This document shows, in pieces, positions 51,060-57,898 of a stretch of DNA of 64,000 nucleotides. The DNA comes from an uncultured Bacteroidales bacterium (GTDB lineage: Bacteria; Bacteroidota; Bacteroidia; Bacteroidales; F082), in NCBI GenBank assembly GCA_900318085.1, contig ONJF01000006.1, positions 51,612 to 115,611 on the forward strand, written 5' to 3'. The position numbers were made by a program, and so were the translations under genes. The notes beneath the pieces are model-generated. The model was given only the letters and a program-made list of their open reading frames with translations, did not search any database and was not told where the DNA came from. The first letter of the stretch is position 1. Each line of letters opens with the position of its first letter.

Positions 51060-51971
51060 TTATGCTTGGTTTTCCATTTTTCGCCTGTGCGCGAAGCTCC
51101 AAACAATCATCACAACGCCAATGACCACGAAGGGAACGCTCAACCATTGCCCCATGTCAAAGGTCATGTTGCGCTCAAAGTCGACTTGAACGTTCTTCAG
51201 GAACTCGATAGCGATGCGCGAGCCAAAGATGATGATGAGGAAGGTGCCGAACATCAGGCCAGGCTGCTTGTGGCCGAGGTCACGCTTGTAGTACATCCAC
51301 AACAGGATGCCCATGGCAACGAGGCAGAAGAAGGCCTCATAAAGACCCGTGGGGTGACATGGCAGCCACTCGCTTTGAGGGCAGCAGTTGCCTGTGGAGC
51401 AAGCCGTGTAATTGTCCACCGTGCCACAGAACTGTTCCTGTCCGCGCAGGAAGACGAAACCCCATGGCAACGAGGTGGGCGTGCCGTAGATCTCATGGTT
51501 CATCACATTGCCGCAACGGATCAAGGCACCCACGAGACAAACGGGCACCACGATGCGGTCAAGAATCCAGATATAGTTGATGCGCTGCAGGTCGGTCTTT
51601 TCTTTCTTTGTCGACTTGTTGTAGCTCCGCACATAGAACCATAGCCCCAGCAAGATGCCGATGGCGCCACCATGGCTGGCGAGACCGCCTTCCCACACAG
51701 CCAACATCTTCAACGGGTTGGAGAGATAATAGTCGGGTTCATAAAACAGGCAATGACCCAACCGAGCACCCACGATAGTGAAGATGAGCATGATGAACAG
51801 CAGTTTGTCCAACGCATCGGCAGCCATCTTCTCGCGACGGTAGATGCGACGCATGACAAAATAGCCGATAAAAAAGCCCAAGGCCCACAACAGGCCGTAC
51901 CAACGGACATGGATGTTGCCGATGGAGAACAGAACGGGATCGACGTTCCAGGTGATGTAGTTTAGAATCAT
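51060..51971 (-). CDS. lgt: Prolipoprotein diacylglyceryl transferase
   Basis: 303 residues with seven TM helices. Signature: YGLLWALGFFIGYFVMRR, EGGLASHGGAIGILLG, and LIRCGNVMNHEIYGTPT (the Lgt signature with catalytic Arg). It transfers diacylglyceryl from phosphatidylglycerol to the lipobox cysteine, the first step for the many lipoproteins of this window. It converges on DUF2723 at a shared terminator. A TACTTTTG box lies 17 bp before the start. Confidence 0.97.
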   Translation of the reverse strand: MILNYITWNVDPVLFSIGNIHVRWYGLLWALGFFIGYFVMRRIYRREKMAADALDKLLFIMLIFTIVGARLGHCLFYEPDYYLSNPLKMLAVWEGGLASHGGAIGILLGLWFYVRSYNKSTKKEKTDLQRINYIWILDRIVVPVCLVGALIRCGNVMNHEIYGTPTSLPWGFVFLRGQEQFCGTVDNYTACSTGNCCPQSEWLPCHPTGLYEAFFCLVAMGILLWMYYKRDLGHKQPGLMFGTFLIIIFGSRIAIEFLKNVQVDFERNMTFDMGQWLSVPFVVIGVVMIVWSFAHRRKMENQA

Positions 51972-51988
51972 AGTTTAGTAATTTGCCG

Positions 51989-51996
51989 CAAAAGTA
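51989..51996 (-). promoter_or_regulatory. Candidate -7 box (TACTTTTG) for lgt
   Basis: Minus-strand TAnnTTTG, 17 bp before ATG 51971. No TTTG at 19-21 bp; TTGAATTG words lie upstream. Confidence 0.5.
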
Positions 51997-52003
51997 AGGA
52001 TAA

Positions 52004-52170
52004 TTGTTGAATTGTTTGTTGTTGAATTGTTTAATTGTTTGGCTGCTGGCTACTGGCAGCTTCTTCCCCACCGTTGTCATTGCGGTTCCGCCTCCGCGGA
52101 ATGAGGCGACCCGCAATCTCCTAATGAGGCAGCCAGAAGCCAAAAGCCAGAGGCCAACAGCAAAAAAACT
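52004..52170. repeat. TTGAATTG words and CCAGAAG-word foldback (v) with palindromic repeat copy H inside
   Basis: TTGTTGAATTG words (52004-52041) are followed by GGCTGCTGGCTACTGGCAGC, then GTCATTGCGGTTCCGCC (52076-52123, copy H), then GCCAGAAGCCAAAAGCC. This is the same nesting as at 35089-35225. Confidence 0.8.
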
Positions 52171-52180
52171 TTCTTCAAAA

Positions 52181-52210
52181 TGTAACTTTTTCAGCATTTC
52201 TCCGTAATAC
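52181..52210 (+). promoter_or_regulatory. ECF-type promoter of the sigma operon (TGTAAC-N16-CGTAATAC)
   Basis: TGTAAC at 52181-52186 and CGTAATAC at 52203-52210, separated by 16 bp with a T-run after TGTAAC, 11 bp before the start codon. The same arrangement lies in front of the convergent gene at 53911-55350, pointing to autoregulation by the sigma factor encoded here. Confidence 0.75.
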
Positions 52211-52221
52211 ATTCGTAAAAG

Positions 52222-52722
52222 ATGGACAGAAGTCAATTCAACCAGTGCGTGGAGCAATATGCCGACCGGCTTTTCCGCTTCGCGTTCGCAAGCCTCCGCA
52301 ACCGCGAGCAGGCCGAGGACGTGGTGCAGGAAAGCTTTGCACGCGTTTGGGAGAAGGCCAAGACGGTGGACTTCGCCAAGGCGAAATCCTACCTCTTCAC
52401 CACCGCCCACCACGTCATGATTGACGAAGCCCGTCTGCGACAACGTTTTGTGAGTGCCGAAGACCACGCACCCGCCGAAGAGAAAACCCAAGCAGTCCCC
52501 TACCCTGATGTCAACGACATCCTACACAAGGCCTTGACCACCCTGCCCGAAGCACAACGCAACGCCTTGCTTTTGCGCGATTATGAGGGATACAGCTACC
52601 AAGAAATCGGCGACATCACGGGGATGACCGAGGCACAAGTCAAGGTCAACATCTTCCGCGCCCGCACCGCGCTGAAAAACAAACTGAAAAGCATCGACAA
52701 CCTTATTGACATAGAGCCATGA
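52222..52722 (+). CDS. ECF RNA polymerase sigma factor
   Basis: 166 residues. Sigma region 2 (FNQCVEQYADRLFRFAFASL, REQAEDVVQESFARVWEKA, AKSYLFTTAHHVMIDE) and region 4 (LTTLPEAQRNALLLRDYEGY, YQEIGDITGMTEAQVKVNIF, RARTAL). It is a small extracytoplasmic-function sigma factor of the phylum. Its gene overlaps the next by four bases (ATGA), so sigma and anti-sigma are translationally coupled. The ECF-type promoter 11 bp upstream suggests it drives its own expression. Confidence 0.94.
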   Translation: MDRSQFNQCVEQYADRLFRFAFASLRNREQAEDVVQESFARVWEKAKTVDFAKAKSYLFTTAHHVMIDEARLRQRFVSAEDHAPAEEKTQAVPYPDVNDILHKALTTLPEAQRNALLLRDYEGYSYQEIGDITGMTEAQVKVNIFRARTALKNKLKSIDNLIDIEP

Positions 52723-53579
52723 AGACAAACATCACCATCGACAACTACGAGGCCTACCTCCTGGATTATATGGAGGGCAACCTCGGTCCCGACGAAGCAG
52801 AGCAGCTGAAAGCCTTCGTCGCGGCACAAGGTCTGGACTGGAATGAGCTCACTGAGGAACTTCCGCATTTGGAGGCACCTCAAATTGAGTTCGAGGACAA
52901 AGAGCGCTTGAAGAAAAAAGGCGCCCTCGTGCCCCTCTATGTCAAGATTGCCTCGGCTGCCGCTGCTGCCGGATTGCTGCTCACTGTCACCTTGTGGCCC
53001 GACAAATCGATGCCGAAAGTGGAACCTATCGCCACCCTAAAACCCATTGAAGTCAGCCGCATCAACACTAACGAGTCCACAACCTTGTTGCCGAGACGAG
53101 CCACAGAAAACACGCTTTCCGAACAAAGGACGATGCCCAACAAAGCGACTATGCGTCATGCAACTAACACAAAAGAACACAGCGTTCCGGCAAGAGAGAC
53201 AACGCCTTTGTTGGCTCAATTACCGGTAAGAACCACTACCGCTATAGAAGCCAACCTGCCTTGGACCGACTTCGATGAGCCCTACTTCGACATGATTGCC
53301 TATCGCATGAACAACGAGTTGGCCATGACGCAACTCAATAAAAACACTGTTTCCGATGATGCCGAAAACGAGCAAGGACTTTCGCTCATCGGCCGAGGCA
53401 TATACCGCCTAACCAACGGTCGCCACGACAGTTTTGCCAGCATCATCTCCACGGGTTTAAGCACTGCCAAGAAGGAGATTAGCCTCGCCGCCACCGACGC
53501 AGCCTTGACAGCCTACTACCGCGCCGACGAACACTTTGAGGAAGTGAAAGAGAACTGGCAGGACAAACGGGAAGAATGA
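52719..53579 (+). CDS. Membrane-anchored anti-sigma factor
   Basis: 286 residues. The first ~60 residues are acidic and helical (DNYEAYLLDYMEGNLGPDEA), like the cytoplasmic sigma-binding part of Bacteroidetes anti-sigma factors. One TM helix is visible (about residues 68-88: YVKIASAAAAAGLLLTVTL). The rest, about 195 residues, would be periplasmic, rich in Thr/Asn, with a helical C-terminus (AALTAYYRADEHFEEVKEN). ATGA overlap with the sigma gene supports the pair. What it senses is unknown; the convergent surface protein is a candidate. Confidence 0.82.
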   Translation: MKTNITIDNYEAYLLDYMEGNLGPDEAEQLKAFVAAQGLDWNELTEELPHLEAPQIEFEDKERLKKKGALVPLYVKIASAAAAAGLLLTVTLWPDKSMPKVEPIATLKPIEVSRINTNESTTLLPRRATENTLSEQRTMPNKATMRHATNTKEHSVPARETTPLLAQLPVRTTTAIEANLPWTDFDEPYFDMIAYRMNNELAMTQLNKNTVSDDAENEQGLSLIGRGIYRLTNGRHDSFASIISTGLSTAKKEISLAATDAALTAYYRADEHFEEVKENWQDKREE

Positions 53580-53880
53580 ATAAAAGCACGCAGAATCCGC
53601 TGAATTGTGGGAAGCGCAAAGCGACGCAAACTTAGTGCCCGATAGGCTTTTGCAAATTAACCTCATTGAAATCCCCATTAACCTCATTGAAATCCCCGAT
53701 TGATTACATCGAATGCGAGGCATTTCGGCGGAGCCAATCTACGATTTCTGTGTGAATTTTCTGCGTGGAAAACCGGGGAGAACGAATAAAAGCACGCAGA
53801 ATCCGCTGAATTGTGGGAAGCGCAAAGCGACGCAAACTTAGCGCCCGATAGGCTTCTGCGAATTCTGCGGATTCTGCGTG
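53575..53880. repeat. Two copies of an 80-bp element and a 21-bp tandem repeat
   Basis: ATAAAAGCACGCAGAATCCG starts at 53581 and again at 53786; about 75 bp are nearly identical. The second copy is a complete palindrome: CACGCAGAATCCGC to GCGGATTCTGCGTG. Between them TTAACCTCATTGAAATCCCC occurs twice (53657-53698). The first copy overlaps the anti-sigma stop codon. This fills the 331-bp gap before the convergent gene; no other gene is seen. Confidence 0.85.
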
Positions 53881-53910
53881 AAAAGAAAACTATATCCTGC
53901 GTGAAACTAA

Positions 53911-55350
53911 TCAGAAATTGACGCTAAACCCAAGCATGAGCGGGTGTGCCTTGGCTGCATCACGTCCTTTAACGAAAGTGGGCACAAGTGCATAGTTGAC
54001 AAAGAAACCCAGATTATCACCGCCAACGCGCAGCGAGGCGTCGCATTTGAATAGATTCGTCAGATAGTTTGAGTAGGTCTTGTTGTTTTCACCATCACCA
54101 TATTTGATACGATTCCATGCGGCAAGACGGATGCCTCCTGTTACACCCAGGTCGATATAGAGATGGCGCGCTGGTCTCACTTCCACCATCAAGGGAGCCT
54201 GAAGATAGAGCAGCCCAAACTTGCTGTTTTTCACGGGGCGATCGTCAGGAATCAGGGTGTTGACCAATTCTCCGTCTTGGACCGTCATCCTGATATAGTT
54301 TTTCCAACTATAGTTGTTCCAGCCAAGACCGATACCGGTAAACATTCCCACTTTATGCTTGCGGTCAAAAGCGACACCGACATCAGCGATATTGAAACCA
54401 AAATACCAACTACGCAGAGGACGGATGGCCATTGACTCATTGGGACCAGTATACACATTCATTTCAGACGGGTCAAGGAGCATATTCAGGCCAGCCTCGA
54501 AGCCATTCCAATGGGCATCGAAAAGGAGGTCCTTTTTTCTGGAACGACTGCCCTTGAATTTGCCTTCCTTTGACGATGTGTTTTCCACAACATTCGATTT
54601 CACAACATTCAAACCGTCGACATTCAAGTCACCACTTCCAAGCAGTATGGTTTCCAACACATTGCATCTACCTTGAAGGATGATATCACCCGAACCATTC
54701 AGAACAACATGGACGGTATCGTAATCCAACTTCATAACCATGTCGCCCGATCCACCATTATATACATTGATATAGTCACCTTTTATAGTGTTCCTGCAGA
54801 TGACATCGCCAGACGAAAGCAATTGGATGTTTTCAAGTTGTGAGACTTCAACTTCATAGTCGTCTGAACTGGAAAGAAGTAGCATCCCCGACTCCGTACG
54901 GTTGTCGGAGACTATCTTGCCCTCTTTCTTCAACGAAAACTGTCCTGGAGTCTGGCTGATAACGACATCGCCCGAGCCCGTTACTCGAATGACGCGAACT
55001 GGGGAATCGTCTTTTTTAGCAGGACGATAGTTGTCCGGCATATCATACTTTTTCTCAAACTCTGCACCCCATTGCTCCATCTTGCGGCCCCATTCTTCCA
55101 TTTCTGCGCCCCATTGCTCCATGTCTTGTTCAAAAGTCTTCCAATCAATTGAATCCGAAAGATATTGGAGGTTCATACCCAATTCACGCATCCGTTCGGA
55201 AAACTGTTCTTGGGCTTGCTTTATTTCAGCCATTCGGCTTTTCATGATGCTATCCGTTTTGGGATCAATTGTTTTGGGTTCATTTACTTGTGCCTTCACC
55301 GTTCCGAAGGCCAGCAGCAGCAAGGCTGCGAAAAATAATCTTGTTTTCAT
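53911..55350 (-). CDS. Exported GIN-type beta-helix/beta-barrel protein with W-heptad coiled coil
   Basis: 479 residues from ATG 55350 (an upstream extension of 42 codons crosses a palindromic repeat and is rejected). A signal peptide (LFFAALLLLAFGTVKAQ) is followed by heptads with Trp: MEQWGAE, MEEWGRK, MEQWGAE (residues ~85-110), a GIN/DUF2807-like domain of SGD-containing strands (VTGSGDVVISQ, LSSGDVICRN, GGSGDMVMK, NGSGDIILQG, LLGSGDLNVDG), and a C-terminal barrel with ~8 strands ending HPLMLGFSVNF. Thus an exported coil-helix-barrel, likely outer membrane. Its ECF-type promoter matches that of the sigma factor, so it is a probable target. Confidence 0.83.
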   Translation of the reverse strand: MKTRLFFAALLLLAFGTVKAQVNEPKTIDPKTDSIMKSRMAEIKQAQEQFSERMRELGMNLQYLSDSIDWKTFEQDMEQWGAEMEEWGRKMEQWGAEFEKKYDMPDNYRPAKKDDSPVRVIRVTGSGDVVISQTPGQFSLKKEGKIVSDNRTESGMLLLSSSDDYEVEVSQLENIQLLSSGDVICRNTIKGDYINVYNGGSGDMVMKLDYDTVHVVLNGSGDIILQGRCNVLETILLGSGDLNVDGLNVVKSNVVENTSSKEGKFKGSRSRKKDLLFDAHWNGFEAGLNMLLDPSEMNVYTGPNESMAIRPLRSWYFGFNIADVGVAFDRKHKVGMFTGIGLGWNNYSWKNYIRMTVQDGELVNTLIPDDRPVKNSKFGLLYLQAPLMVEVRPARHLYIDLGVTGGIRLAAWNRIKYGDGENNKTYSNYLTNLFKCDASLRVGGDNLGFFVNYALVPTFVKGRDAAKAHPLMLGFSVNF

Positions 55351-55431
55351 TTTTATTGGTGTTTTTGATGTTTGTTGTTCTTCCTGTACTATTGACACTT
55401 CAATGGAAATCACATCCCTAGAGCCTTGACT

Positions 55432-55518
55432 GTCATGGCGGAGGGGCATCCGCCATCTCCTATGCGCGAAGGCCATGCCCTCCCGTTCAGGAGATTGCGG
55501 GTCAAGCCCGCAATGACG
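55432..55518. repeat. Dispersed three-hairpin palindromic repeat, copy I
   Basis: GTCATGGCGGAGGGGCATCC to GGGTCAAGCCCGCAATGACG. It sits in the leader of the 53911-55350 gene, between promoter and start. Confidence 0.85.
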
Positions 55519-55563
55519 GTTTAAGGGTGAATGAAGTGCCTCCCATTTGAGTGTCTTTCAATC

Positions 55564-55593
55564 GTAATACGAAGAAACAGCAAAAAAGTTACA
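55564..55593 (-). promoter_or_regulatory. ECF-type promoter (TGTAAC-N16-CGTATTAC) of the GIN/barrel gene
   Basis: Minus strand: TGTAAC at 55593-55588 and CGTATTAC at 55571-55564, 16 bp apart, with the same T-run after TGTAAC as the sigma promoter. The leader would be ~205 nt and contain repeat copy I. Confidence 0.72.
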
Positions 55594-55597
55594 GCCC

Positions 55598-57898
55598 TTA
55601 CTCAAAAAAAGCGGAAAAATAGCATTTGCGCTCTGCGGTGAGGGTGTCTCCTTCGGTCAATTGCAACTTTACATAAACCTTTTGCAAGTCGGCATTTCTC
55701 AAATAATCACCTAGGCCTTCCACCGTGTATTTCCGGTTTTCGTTCGCATCCATCTCCACCTTCACTTTTTGTTCAAACTTTGGGTGGTCTTTGAGCCTAT
55801 CAAGTTTGAGGTCTTCAAGGTCGCACACCGCAACGGTCAGCGTGCCATCAATGTCGCGAAGCAAGTCGGATGTGACGAAAACGCCATAGTCTTTCTTGTC
55901 GAGGCTTAAAAGCACGGGTGCATAAAGTGTCTTGAGTCTTTCGTAAAACACTTTGGGATTACCATAATAATCGATGGACGACCACGAAGTCACGGGCCAG
56001 GCATCGTTGAGTTGCCAATAGAGCGTGCCCATATTATAGGGTTTCGCCGTGCGGTGTGCCTCAATCGCGACTTCCATGCCGTAGGCCTGTGAGAGTTGGC
56101 TCAAATGCACATATTCCTCAAAGTCCTTGGGCTTAACATTAGGGAAATACCGTTTGATGAAGTCATCGATTTGCCGCGTGCCACGCGGGTGTTTCTGATG
56201 TGCCGCAATGACTTTGGCATCCTTACTCAACGCCTTACCCTGCGCGATTTTCTGCAAGGTAGAATAGTCAGGATAACTCTGGTAACCGTACTCGCTGTTG
56301 AAGCGCCCCACCTTCTCGCGGTACATCTCGTAAGGCTGCTCGCCCCACCAAACACCCCAATAATGCACATCGCCTTCCGTCAAACTCTCGGGTCGACCCC
56401 AGCCTTTCGAGGGTGAACTGGGCCAATAGGGCCGCGAACCGTCGTAGATCTCGACGGACCATGGCAAGATGCCCTCAAAGAGTCGGTCATAACCTGCCTT
56501 GACAGCCTTGTCATCCTCTTCGCTCCAACCCAAGGACTGTTGCCAACCCCAGTTATAGTAGCCTTCCGAGATTTCGTTGCCACCGCACCACAAGGCCAGC
56601 GATGGATGCGAAGCCAAGCGTCTCACCTGCTCCTCCGCTTCAATCCGAGCGTTTTCGAGGAAAGTCTCGTCGAAAGGATACATCGAACCTGCATACATGA
56701 AGTCCTGCCATACCAAGATGCCCAACGAGTCGCAGATATTGAAGAAATCATCCGAGGGATAGATGCCGCCGCCCCACACACGCAGCATATTGAAATGGGC
56801 ATCCTTGGCCATTTTGAGCAACTTCAGCGTGTTGTCGACGTTAATCCAAGTCTCTATCATCTCCTCGGGAACATAGTTCGCGCCTTTGGCATACATCGGC
56901 ACGCCATTCACCTTGAAATAGAAGGCGCGACCGATGCTGTCGGGCTCATCGACCATCTCGAAGGTACGGATACCCGTCTTGAACTTTTTGGTGTCCAGCA
57001 CCCTATCGTCTTTTTTCAACACCACTTCAAAGTCATACAGCGGTTGCTCGCCCATCTCGTTGGGCCACCAAAGTTGAGGGTCTTGTATAAAAACAGGAAA
57101 CACCTTATGATGACGGCCTTTCGACAGGCTCAAGGACCTGTTGGCTAAAATCGTTGAACCTGTTGAGACGATAACTTCATATTCCCCGTCCGTTGCATTC
57201 TCAACATCCAAATGCAGCGTCAACATGGCATGTACCGAATCAGCGATTCCTGTGACGGCATAGGCGTCTTCCAAACGCACCTCATTCCAGCCCATCAACT
57301 TCACGGGTTTCCAGATGCCCACATTCTTATACTTCGGCGCCCAGTCCCATCCATGTTGATAGGGGGCCTTGCGACTGACAGCATACTTCTCTGGCAAAAC
57401 AGGCAGGACCTGTTCGTATAAATCCGTCATAACGCTGTCGTATCCAGTGAAATGCACTTCAAGCAGGTTGTCTTTCTCCTTCAAATAGCGTTTTACATCC
57501 ACTTTCCATTCACGGAATTGGTTGTCGGTGGAGATCAACTCATAGCCATTCAAAGAGATATCGGCATAAGTGTCAAGGCCTTCAAAAACCAGTTCGACAA
57601 ACTCTTTTTCGAGCAGTCCCTCATCCACATCAAAGCGCAAAGCGTAATCCCACACATGGTCGGAAATCCAGAGCAATTGGTTTTCCACCGTGCCGAGATA
57701 GGGATGGGGAATCACTCCGTTTTCGTATAGGCTCTGCTGCACCACCGAGGGTACATCGACCTGCATCTTTATAGATAAGGTGTCTCCCGTAAGCGTCCAG
57801 CCTTGGTTGAGGCTTTGCTCGATGACATTTTGGCTTTCCGCCTTTTGGCAGCCCATGAAAGCAAACAGCAGCAATAATAATGGAAAGGGTTTTTTCAT
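55598..57898 (-). CDS. GH2 glycosidase, beta-mannosidase-like lipoprotein
   Basis: 766 residues. Lipobox LFAFMGC (Cys17). Domain order of GH2: sugar-binding jelly roll (VDVPSVVQQSLYENGVIPHP), immunoglobulin-like domain, then TIM barrel with acid/base WCGGNEISEGYYNWGW (Glu ~441) and nucleophile RFNSEYGYQSYPDY (Glu ~535). QHGWDWAPKYKNVGIWKPV is typical of beta-mannosidases. The C-terminal part has further beta domains. The enzyme probably removes mannose from host or plant N-glycan or mannan oligosaccharides at the cell surface or periplasm. cutC lies upstream, with repeat copy J between. Confidence 0.88.
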   Translation of the reverse strand: MKKPFPLLLLLFAFMGCQKAESQNVIEQSLNQGWTLTGDTLSIKMQVDVPSVVQQSLYENGVIPHPYLGTVENQLLWISDHVWDYALRFDVDEGLLEKEFVELVFEGLDTYADISLNGYELISTDNQFREWKVDVKRYLKEKDNLLEVHFTGYDSVMTDLYEQVLPVLPEKYAVSRKAPYQHGWDWAPKYKNVGIWKPVKLMGWNEVRLEDAYAVTGIADSVHAMLTLHLDVENATDGEYEVIVSTGSTILANRSLSLSKGRHHKVFPVFIQDPQLWWPNEMGEQPLYDFEVVLKKDDRVLDTKKFKTGIRTFEMVDEPDSIGRAFYFKVNGVPMYAKGANYVPEEMIETWINVDNTLKLLKMAKDAHFNMLRVWGGGIYPSDDFFNICDSLGILVWQDFMYAGSMYPFDETFLENARIEAEEQVRRLASHPSLALWCGGNEISEGYYNWGWQQSLGWSEEDDKAVKAGYDRLFEGILPWSVEIYDGSRPYWPSSPSKGWGRPESLTEGDVHYWGVWWGEQPYEMYREKVGRFNSEYGYQSYPDYSTLQKIAQGKALSKDAKVIAAHQKHPRGTRQIDDFIKRYFPNVKPKDFEEYVHLSQLSQAYGMEVAIEAHRTAKPYNMGTLYWQLNDAWPVTSWSSIDYYGNPKVFYERLKTLYAPVLLSLDKKDYGVFVTSDLLRDIDGTLTVAVCDLEDLKLDRLKDHPKFEQKVKVEMDANENRKYTVEGLGDYLRNADLQKVYVKLQLTEGDTLTAERKCYFSAFFE

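Follow-up and report, generated by a model that had tools for sequence, protein, structure and literature searches.

The window analysed here is a stretch of 64,000 nucleotides from an uncultured Bacteroidales bacterium of the F082 lineage (contig ONJF01000006.1). It contains the operon of an extracytoplasmic function (ECF) sigma factor and, facing it, a gene coding for a GIN/beta-barrel protein, and the question raised by this locus is whether both are served by one promoter type and by one regulator. The comparison of related loci points in this direction. The genes likely form an autoregulated ECF sigma/anti-sigma envelope switch, which acts on the GIN/barrel gene and on a small envelope regulon. 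The elements concerned are the following:

52181..52206, plus strand: ECF-type promoter of the sigma operon, TGTAAC-N16-CGTA, with a conserved stretch to 52210 (CGTAATAC); exact search, 37/37 convergent loci
52222..52722, plus strand: ECF sigma factor of 166 amino acids (aa), sigma-70 regions 2 and 4 only; Pfam and NCBIfam
52719..53579, plus strand: putative class I anti-sigma factor of 286 aa; alignment of 37 sequences and AlphaFold2 (AF2) model, without a Pfam or NCBIfam match
53911..55350, minus strand: GIN/beta-barrel protein of 479 aa, counted from a probable ATG at 55350; Pfam PF10988, AF2, Foldseek and profile search
55568..55593, minus strand: ECF-type promoter of the GIN/barrel gene, TGTAAC-N16-CGTA, with a conserved stretch to 55564 (CGTATTAC); exact search, 34/37 convergent loci

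The promoter boxes were located exactly where the original prediction had placed them. On the plus strand, TGTAAC at 52181-52186 is followed, after 16 bases, by CGTAATAC at 52203-52210; on the minus strand, TGTAAC at 55593-55588 is followed, again after 16 bases, by CGTATTAC at 55571-55564. An exact search of the 64-kb window found TGTAAC-N16-CGTA in these two places only. The pattern, which was picked after the pair had been seen, occurred on average 0.05 times in 100 shuffled windows and never twice. In a de novo repeat search of 51972-55650, the pair was recovered as one of three inverted repeats of at least 25 nt (arms 52181-52210 and 55564-55593). The T-run noticed earlier after TGTAAC was confirmed; it belongs to the conserved motif (TGTAACTTTTT), whose conservation extends to TCTCCGTATTAC. 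The -10 box of the GIN gene ends 217 nt ahead of the probable ATG, and the idea of an unusually long leader was rejected, since leaders in 31 relatives span 47-239 nt.

The pair had also been described as a class of its own beside the TAnnTTTG promoters of the window. No TAnnTTTG box was found upstream of either gene on its own strand (51972-52222, plus; 55350-55650, minus), and TAnnTTTG is over-represented in the window (39 vs. 24.3 expected, sd 5, by overall count), which agrees with this contrast. The class is not exotic, since AAC at -35 and CGT at -10 are given as hallmarks of ECF promoters generally in PMC8103513. TGTAAC..CGTC was also found ahead of ECF operons of more distant Bacteroidota that have no GIN gene next to them.

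The conservation of the motif was analyzed in 80 sigma-homologue loci (L006-L085; L numbers denote fetched loci, G numbers genomes of comparison), which are the best 80 of 265 found and show 46-99% identity. The nearest homologues come from metagenome-assembled genomes of the ruminant gut, with 99% identity for L006 (goat abomasum) and 83% for L019 ('bacterium F082'). By layout, the 80 loci comprised 36 convergent ones, 7 with the GIN gene first on the same strand (L043 and L050 were assigned from coordinates), 17 with all genes forward and 20 without a detected GIN/barrel neighbour. Together with the window, this gave 37 convergent loci. The sigma-side site was present in all 37, and TGTAAC-N16-CGT[AC] was present at both genes in 34. 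The three misses are on the GIN side: L008 is at a contig end, the GIN start of L013 is unreadable, and L028 has CGTAAC for TGTAAC. The consensus is about TGTAACTTTTTCnCCnnnTCTCCGTATTAC ahead of sigma and about TGTAACTTTTTTnnTGTTTCTCCGTATTAC ahead of GIN, and in these loci the flanking columns are mostly far less conserved than the motif.

The other layouts were equally informative. Where the GIN gene directly precedes sigma, the site was found ahead of GIN in 7/7 loci and ahead of sigma in 0/7. In the all-forward layout, in which sigma and anti-sigma are followed by a GIN/barrel or a barrel-only gene, the sigma site was present in 15/17 loci and the partner site in 13/17 (one of them as GGTAAC). 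The sigma site was also kept in 19 of the 20 loci without a detected neighbour. As far as the sequences tell, the promoter moves with gene order. A free scan for TGTAAC-N15-18-CGT[AC] over the 80 loci (889 kb) returned 124 matches, 70 of which precede sigma, 53 a GIN or barrel gene, and 1 lies elsewhere; the reversed pattern gave 17 matches, and five first-order Markov simulations gave 1, 5, 5, 7 and 8. The promoter conservation reaches down to about 46% sigma identity. Lack of conservation in orthologous loci was one of the refuting outcomes named by the original prediction. When this was checked, the motif proved to be kept at both genes in convergent orthologues and to follow the genes through rearrangements. 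In one locus (L052; G016:C25:919-1390), the sigma gene is broken by stop codons, yet the sites of both promoters are present.

The link between the motif and the sigma gene was further assayed in a same-genus set of 60 genomes (the window's own and 59 others), which are related to one another, several of them being incomplete and many shared with the genomes behind the 80 loci. The sigma gene was detected in 37 of them. The extended motif TGTAACTTTT-N12-CGTA occurred in 29/37 sigma-positive vs. 1/23 sigma-negative genomes (Fisher p 1.5e-8) and its CGTA or CGTC form in 35/37 vs. 4/23 (p 7.5e-10); because the genomes are related and overlapping, these p values are overstated, and the test partly repeats that of the 80 loci. 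The reversed patterns matched 5 and 7 of the 60 genomes. Among the sigma-negative genomes, the matches of G009 and G011 overlap open reading frames (ORFs) on the opposite strand, and that of G047 is identical in sequence to the one of G009. This co-occurrence agrees with the link between motif and sigma factor that had been proposed.

The sigma factor itself is of the two-domain ECF (group IV) type. It consists of domains 2 and 4 only, joined by a short linker (Sigma70_r2, residues 10-75, 9.5e-15; Sigma70_r4_2, residues 100-151, 5.3e-17), and its own operon carries an AAC/CGT promoter (TGTAAC/CGTA, 52181-52206). It scored 133.2-134 bits against NCBIfam NF058625 (GFO_1088/PG0214 family), which is barely over the cut-off of 130. 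For comparison, 29 other NF058625 loci were fetched with 1.5 kb on each side (3.5 kb), and homologues were sought by phmmer. Many of these members have TGTAAC..CGTC promoters, as the window sigma has TGTAAC..CGTA. Their neighbourhood differs: phmmer found no GIN or anti-sigma homologue in the 29 loci, and all four tested (L184, L190, L199 and L201) have DUF4252 neighbours, unlike the window. Against the window sigma, these loci scored 35-83 bits and the 80 homologous loci 159-358 bits. Because the gene neighbourhood of the high-scoring members differs, we regard the window sigma as a marginal relative of NF058625 and not as its equivalog. In L197 (1-506, minus strand), a distant ECF locus, a gene with a borderline DUF4097 (Toastrack) match follows an anti-sigma-like gene (23.2 bits vs. 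a cut-off of 22.9), which is a possible further ECF-Toastrack pairing.

The ATG of the 286-aa gene overlaps the sigma stop codon. In the AF2 model of its product, helices at residues 10-18, 24-36 and 41-45 are followed by a probable transmembrane (TM) helix at 73-92, a low-confidence linker and C-terminal helices. The predicted local distance difference test score (pLDDT) was 80-88 over the first 40 residues and 69-81 in the C-terminal blocks; at 58.9 overall, the model was too poor for a fold search. A search against PDB sequences gave nothing meaningful (best E 0.29, unrelated). We consider the protein a putative class I anti-sigma factor. The model has no strands or barrel and its C-terminus is helical, so, at this low overall confidence, the protein was rejected as a candidate Dma protein. 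In 6 of the 7 GIN-first loci (L041-L045 and L047), the anti-sigma homologue is without helices 1-3, and there is no room for them upstream in frame. The stretch matching helix 4 and the TM segment is retained in these loci, as are sigma, the GIN-first operon and the promoter. In the known class I pairs treated in PMC7406223, the contact with sigma4 is made by helix 1 and that with sigma2 by helix 4.

The GIN/barrel protein is composed of a signal peptide, a helical coil (30-102), a GIN (DUF2807/Toastrack) beta-helix at about 115-256 and a beta-barrel at about 283-478. The assignment of the GIN domain was made with Pfam PF10988 (2e-15, 57.5 bits vs. a cut-off of 24.2). The AF2 model (pLDDT 78.1) was matched by Foldseek to the solved GIN 'putative adhesins' 4ygu (4.8e-05), 3lyc and 3pet and to the OmpA barrel 1bxw, and a profile search also returned 3pet (2.7e-16). 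The all-forward partners in L054, L061 and L066 have a barrel without GIN (PF13568 only). Because these three distant partners are barrels without GIN, the barrel appears to be the most constant part. According to PMC11237479, Toastrack, which is a partner of PspC, unites several models, and GIN/DUF2807 is one of them; the paper infers an intracellular Toastrack and mentions some contexts with an operonically linked sigma factor. The GIN domain found here is probably exported, because signal peptides or lipoboxes precede it and a barrel is fused to it.

The module was predicted to be small and autoregulated, with the surface protein as its target. The promoters of the own operon and of the GIN gene are conserved, and at the level of promoter conservation this is consistent with both claims. 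It is not a closed module, as the majority of same-genus genomes in which the pair occurs contain at least one more exact site of the CGTA or CGTC form, and a module of two promoters was therefore rejected in favor of a candidate wider envelope regulon. Beyond the module, 0 to 4 further exact sites were found per same-genus genome. We read 54 of the 56 such sites; the two left out are near-repeats, one of a G014 sequence and one of the G009 sequence. An ORF of at least 60 aa starts within 200 nt at 48 of the 54 sites, and 33 of these start at 23-37 nt. By a crude rule, the N terminus of 44 of the 48 downstream ORFs resembles a signal peptide or a lipobox or is hydrophobic in some other way. 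GIN homologues lie downstream of 19 of the 48 sites, with L131 (221 nt from the GIN start) left uncounted. The other kinds of target were assigned by sequence clusters and by Pfam on one or two representatives each, L152 and L162 being paired by eye:

carboxypeptidase-regulatory-like outer-membrane proteins: 5 of 48
M13 peptidase lipoprotein: 4 of 48
lipocalin: 4 of 48
PspC: 3 of 48
426-aa lipoprotein without a Pfam match: 3 of 48
PF00144 lipoprotein: 2 of 48
small barrels, with a Pfam match below its cut-off: 2 of 48
S41 peptidase: 1 of 48
remaining five of 48: L107, L145, L147, L150 and L160

In L145, L146, L147 and L160 the site lies across another ORF, and these four are probably noise. 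The PspC-like genes have the same ECF promoter 23-32 nt ahead of the ATG (L111:496, L113:3468 and L154:528), and in L111 Pfam recognised PspC together with a LiaI-LiaF-like TM region. No PspC match was found in the window's own genome.

In that genome, a CGTC-type site (TGTAACTTTTTGGGCATAACTCCGTC) lies 30 nt ahead of the gene for a 274-aa GIN lipoprotein (L141/L214). This lipoprotein was surveyed at the best locus per genome in 60 genomes (the own one, 35 same-genus and 24 other). The site was found in 9/10 loci at 56% identity or more to the own-genome protein, in 2/11 same-genus loci at 40-48% and in 3/9 loci of other families. Six GIN genes were found in the own genome, and two of them have the site. 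Consequently, with these counts and those of the more distant same-genus lipoprotein loci, we rejected the view that every GIN gene belongs to the regulon.

The evidence for the switch consists of the promoter conservation, its movement with gene order, its co-occurrence with sigma and the kinds of genes that carry the site. We infer that the window sigma reads these promoters, that the 286-aa protein inhibits it and that the signal is envelope stress. The N-terminal helices of the anti-sigma factor would tether sigma at the inner membrane, and its periplasmic part would sense envelope or outer-membrane trouble and release sigma. The freed sigma would guide RNA polymerase to TGTAACTTTT-N12-CGTA promoters. 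At its own operon, this would provide positive feedback, plus extra inhibitor for the reset. The adjacent target would be an outer-membrane protein in which a coil in the periplasm and a GIN/Toastrack beta-helix are joined to an OmpA-like barrel. The other targets would form a small set that varies between lineages and consists of lipoproteins of the envelope and outer-membrane proteins, chiefly a second GIN lipoprotein.

Several observations weigh against this switch. No known anti-sigma domain was recognised in the 286-aa protein, which gave no Pfam or NCBIfam match up to E 0.1, and in the subclade without helices 1-3 inhibition must therefore differ and may be partial. The sigma-negative G038 (73% complete) retains an M13-peptidase site, the sigma-positive G013 and G036 have neither exact form of the motif, and the co-occurrence test is limited as stated above. 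The 20 sigma loci without a detected GIN/barrel neighbour, some of them on short contigs, speak against the switch and also against an alternative in which the GIN/barrel protein is also the outer-membrane half of the sensor. According to this alternative, which we consider possible although unlikely, the barrel-GIN-coil chain would span the periplasm and touch the anti-sigma factor, as a two-piece counterpart of Dma. It is in line with the linkage of sigma, anti-sigma and barrel protein, which persists over three gene orders, with the constancy of the barrel in L054, L061 and L066, whose partners are without GIN, and with the long coil that, in the modelled window protein, separates the GIN domain from the signal peptide. 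Dma proteins hold the same kinds of part on one chain, in the account given by PMC13088901, and PMC9308784 ties a barrel-bearing anti-sigma factor in Phocaeicola to envelope stress. Regulated effectors, however, are equally linked to their regulators.

The own genome contains 7 matches to the window sigma's family at E 0.001, and the motif has the general ECF form, so a paralogous ECF factor could read some sites, which is a further point against the switch. In a second alternative, another ECF sigma of the same genome, or several with overlapping specificity, reads the promoters, and the adjacent sigma gene is itself just one target. TGTAAC..CGTC ahead of other Bacteroidota ECF operons and the seven family matches favor it, and for F. 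psychrophilum PMC9723704 considers ECF regulons that overlap. We hold it to be improbable, as the extended motif tracks the window-type sigma gene over the 60 genomes and is found, in each layout, at sigma's own operon or at the GIN gene heading it. Counts in the host genome (3.24 Mb in 93 contigs) also weigh against the switch: TGTAAC-N16-CGTA gave 5 matches vs. 12 for the reversed control, and the extended pattern, when as many as two mismatches were allowed, gave 23 vs. 57. Such single-genome counts prove nothing, and the significance therefore depends on the comparison of relatives. The rarity of the pattern relative to the reversed control favors a third alternative, in which the two sites arose by chance or by recent duplication and have no function. 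The comparative data led us to reject this explanation as extremely improbable, because the sites are conserved at both genes in 34/37 loci with flanks that are less so, and persist where the gene order differs and where sigma identity falls to about 46%.

Outside their own genes, TGTAAC..CGT sites looked scarcer than reversed controls in the own genome (G000) and in L006-L085, and the Markov controls were lower too. This scarcity of promoter-like sites might reflect avoidance.

The proposed switch is of an ordinary ECF kind with canonical boxes and is tied to GIN/Toastrack and barrel proteins. Escherichia coli RpoE and RseA have the organisation of an ECF sigma factor with its cognate class I anti-sigma factor. 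The window locus resembles this type in having regions 2 and 4 only, an AAC/CGT promoter, an overlapping anti-sigma-like gene, an own-operon site and candidate envelope targets. It differs in that its putative anti-sigma factor is unrecognised by Pfam and NCBIfam and its linked candidate target is a GIN/barrel protein. The Das/Dma and EcfO/Reo systems of Bacteroides and Phocaeicola, as presented in PMC13088901 and PMC9308784, share with it an ECF sigma, an envelope-spanning inhibitor and an outer-membrane barrel, and their output is envelope stress or vesiculation. Dma is described in PMC13088901 as a one-piece anti-sigma factor built of an anti-sigma domain (ASD), TM segment, tether and barrel. 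In those systems the anti-sigma factor itself ends, at its C-terminus, in the barrel, whereas here the barrel belongs to a separate, probably sigma-controlled GIN protein, and the modelled 286-aa anti-sigma factor is without a barrel. Inhibitor and barrel are thus two proteins here, and the barrel may be output only or also a sensor arm.

In the case of the Toastrack (DUF4097/DUF2154/DUF2807)-PspC/Lia systems, the likeness lies in GIN being a Toastrack model and in PspC having the same promoter in L111, L113 and L154. Unlike in PSP/Lia systems, control would lie with an ECF sigma and not with a two-component system or another regulator, GIN is predicted to be exported and not intracellular, and the own genome is without a PspC match. 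In open-licence PMC text, we found no literature tying DUF2807/GIN to such an ECF regulon. The resemblances can be combined into a single, more speculative proposal, which we regard as rather unlikely as a whole. The locus would encode a split two-protein trans-envelope sensor, in which a sigma-controlled coil-GIN-barrel protein is the outer-membrane arm reporting to a single-span anti-sigma factor. The regulon driven by the sensor would be built around GIN/Toastrack proteins that are exported, joined in some species by PspC, with an ECF sigma replacing the two-component or other Lia/PSP regulators, and the last -10 base (A for C) would have shifted with one acidic sigma residue.

This last base was compared with residue 69 of sigma in the 108 loci of 115 with a readable promoter. 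Glu or Asp was found at this residue in 43/47 loci with CGTA or CGTT vs. 1/61 with CGTC. The CGTC rows L272-L277 repeat contigs of L042-L045, L047 and L050, and without them the latter count is 1/55. The exceptions are L039 (G, CGTA), L083 (D, CGTC) and L254, L261 and L262 (neutral, CGTT). On supported branches, 5 independent pairs were available, of which typically 3 are informative; these 3 point in the same direction (p 0.25). The association is a lead only, because there are few independent changes. We do not claim that residue 69 reads the end base of the -10 box directly, given the few independent pairs and published contacts that place the flipped last base in the specificity loop (PMC6411747); the position of residue 69 relative to these contacts comes from our own, tentative alignment.

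The module is flanked by two genes:

51060-51971, minus strand: lgt, the leftmost neighbour in the locus
55598-57898, minus strand: GH2 family gene (Pfam), beyond the GIN/barrel gene

A 250-nt intergenic stretch separates lgt from the sigma gene. The GH2 family gene is the next neighbour also where the GIN gene is absent (by Pfam in the window and L063, by eye in L046 and L048). In distant loci, a 595-aa GTPase-like gene, which we take to be LepA, often lies upstream of sigma instead. Between the anti-sigma and GIN genes there is a 98-nt direct repeat (93%) at 53561-53658 and 53767-53864, and the region has ten more partial matches elsewhere in the genome.

In the literature consulted, envelope-stress control in Bacteroidota has been described mainly for Bacteroides and Phocaeicola (EcfO/Reo and Das/Dma). 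Judged from sequence comparison, the system analysed here looks like a little-described envelope-stress regulon of gut and rumen Bacteroidales. Its promoter code would make a regulon readable from sequence in uncultured members of this group, and it yields predictions that bear directly on the mapping of 5' ends and the deletion of sigma. It would connect the GIN/DUF2807 proteins, which are widespread and for the most part unexplained, with one particular ECF sigma factor and, in some species, with PspC, and it places the Toastrack fold, by prediction, outside the cytoplasm in this Bacteroidales lineage.

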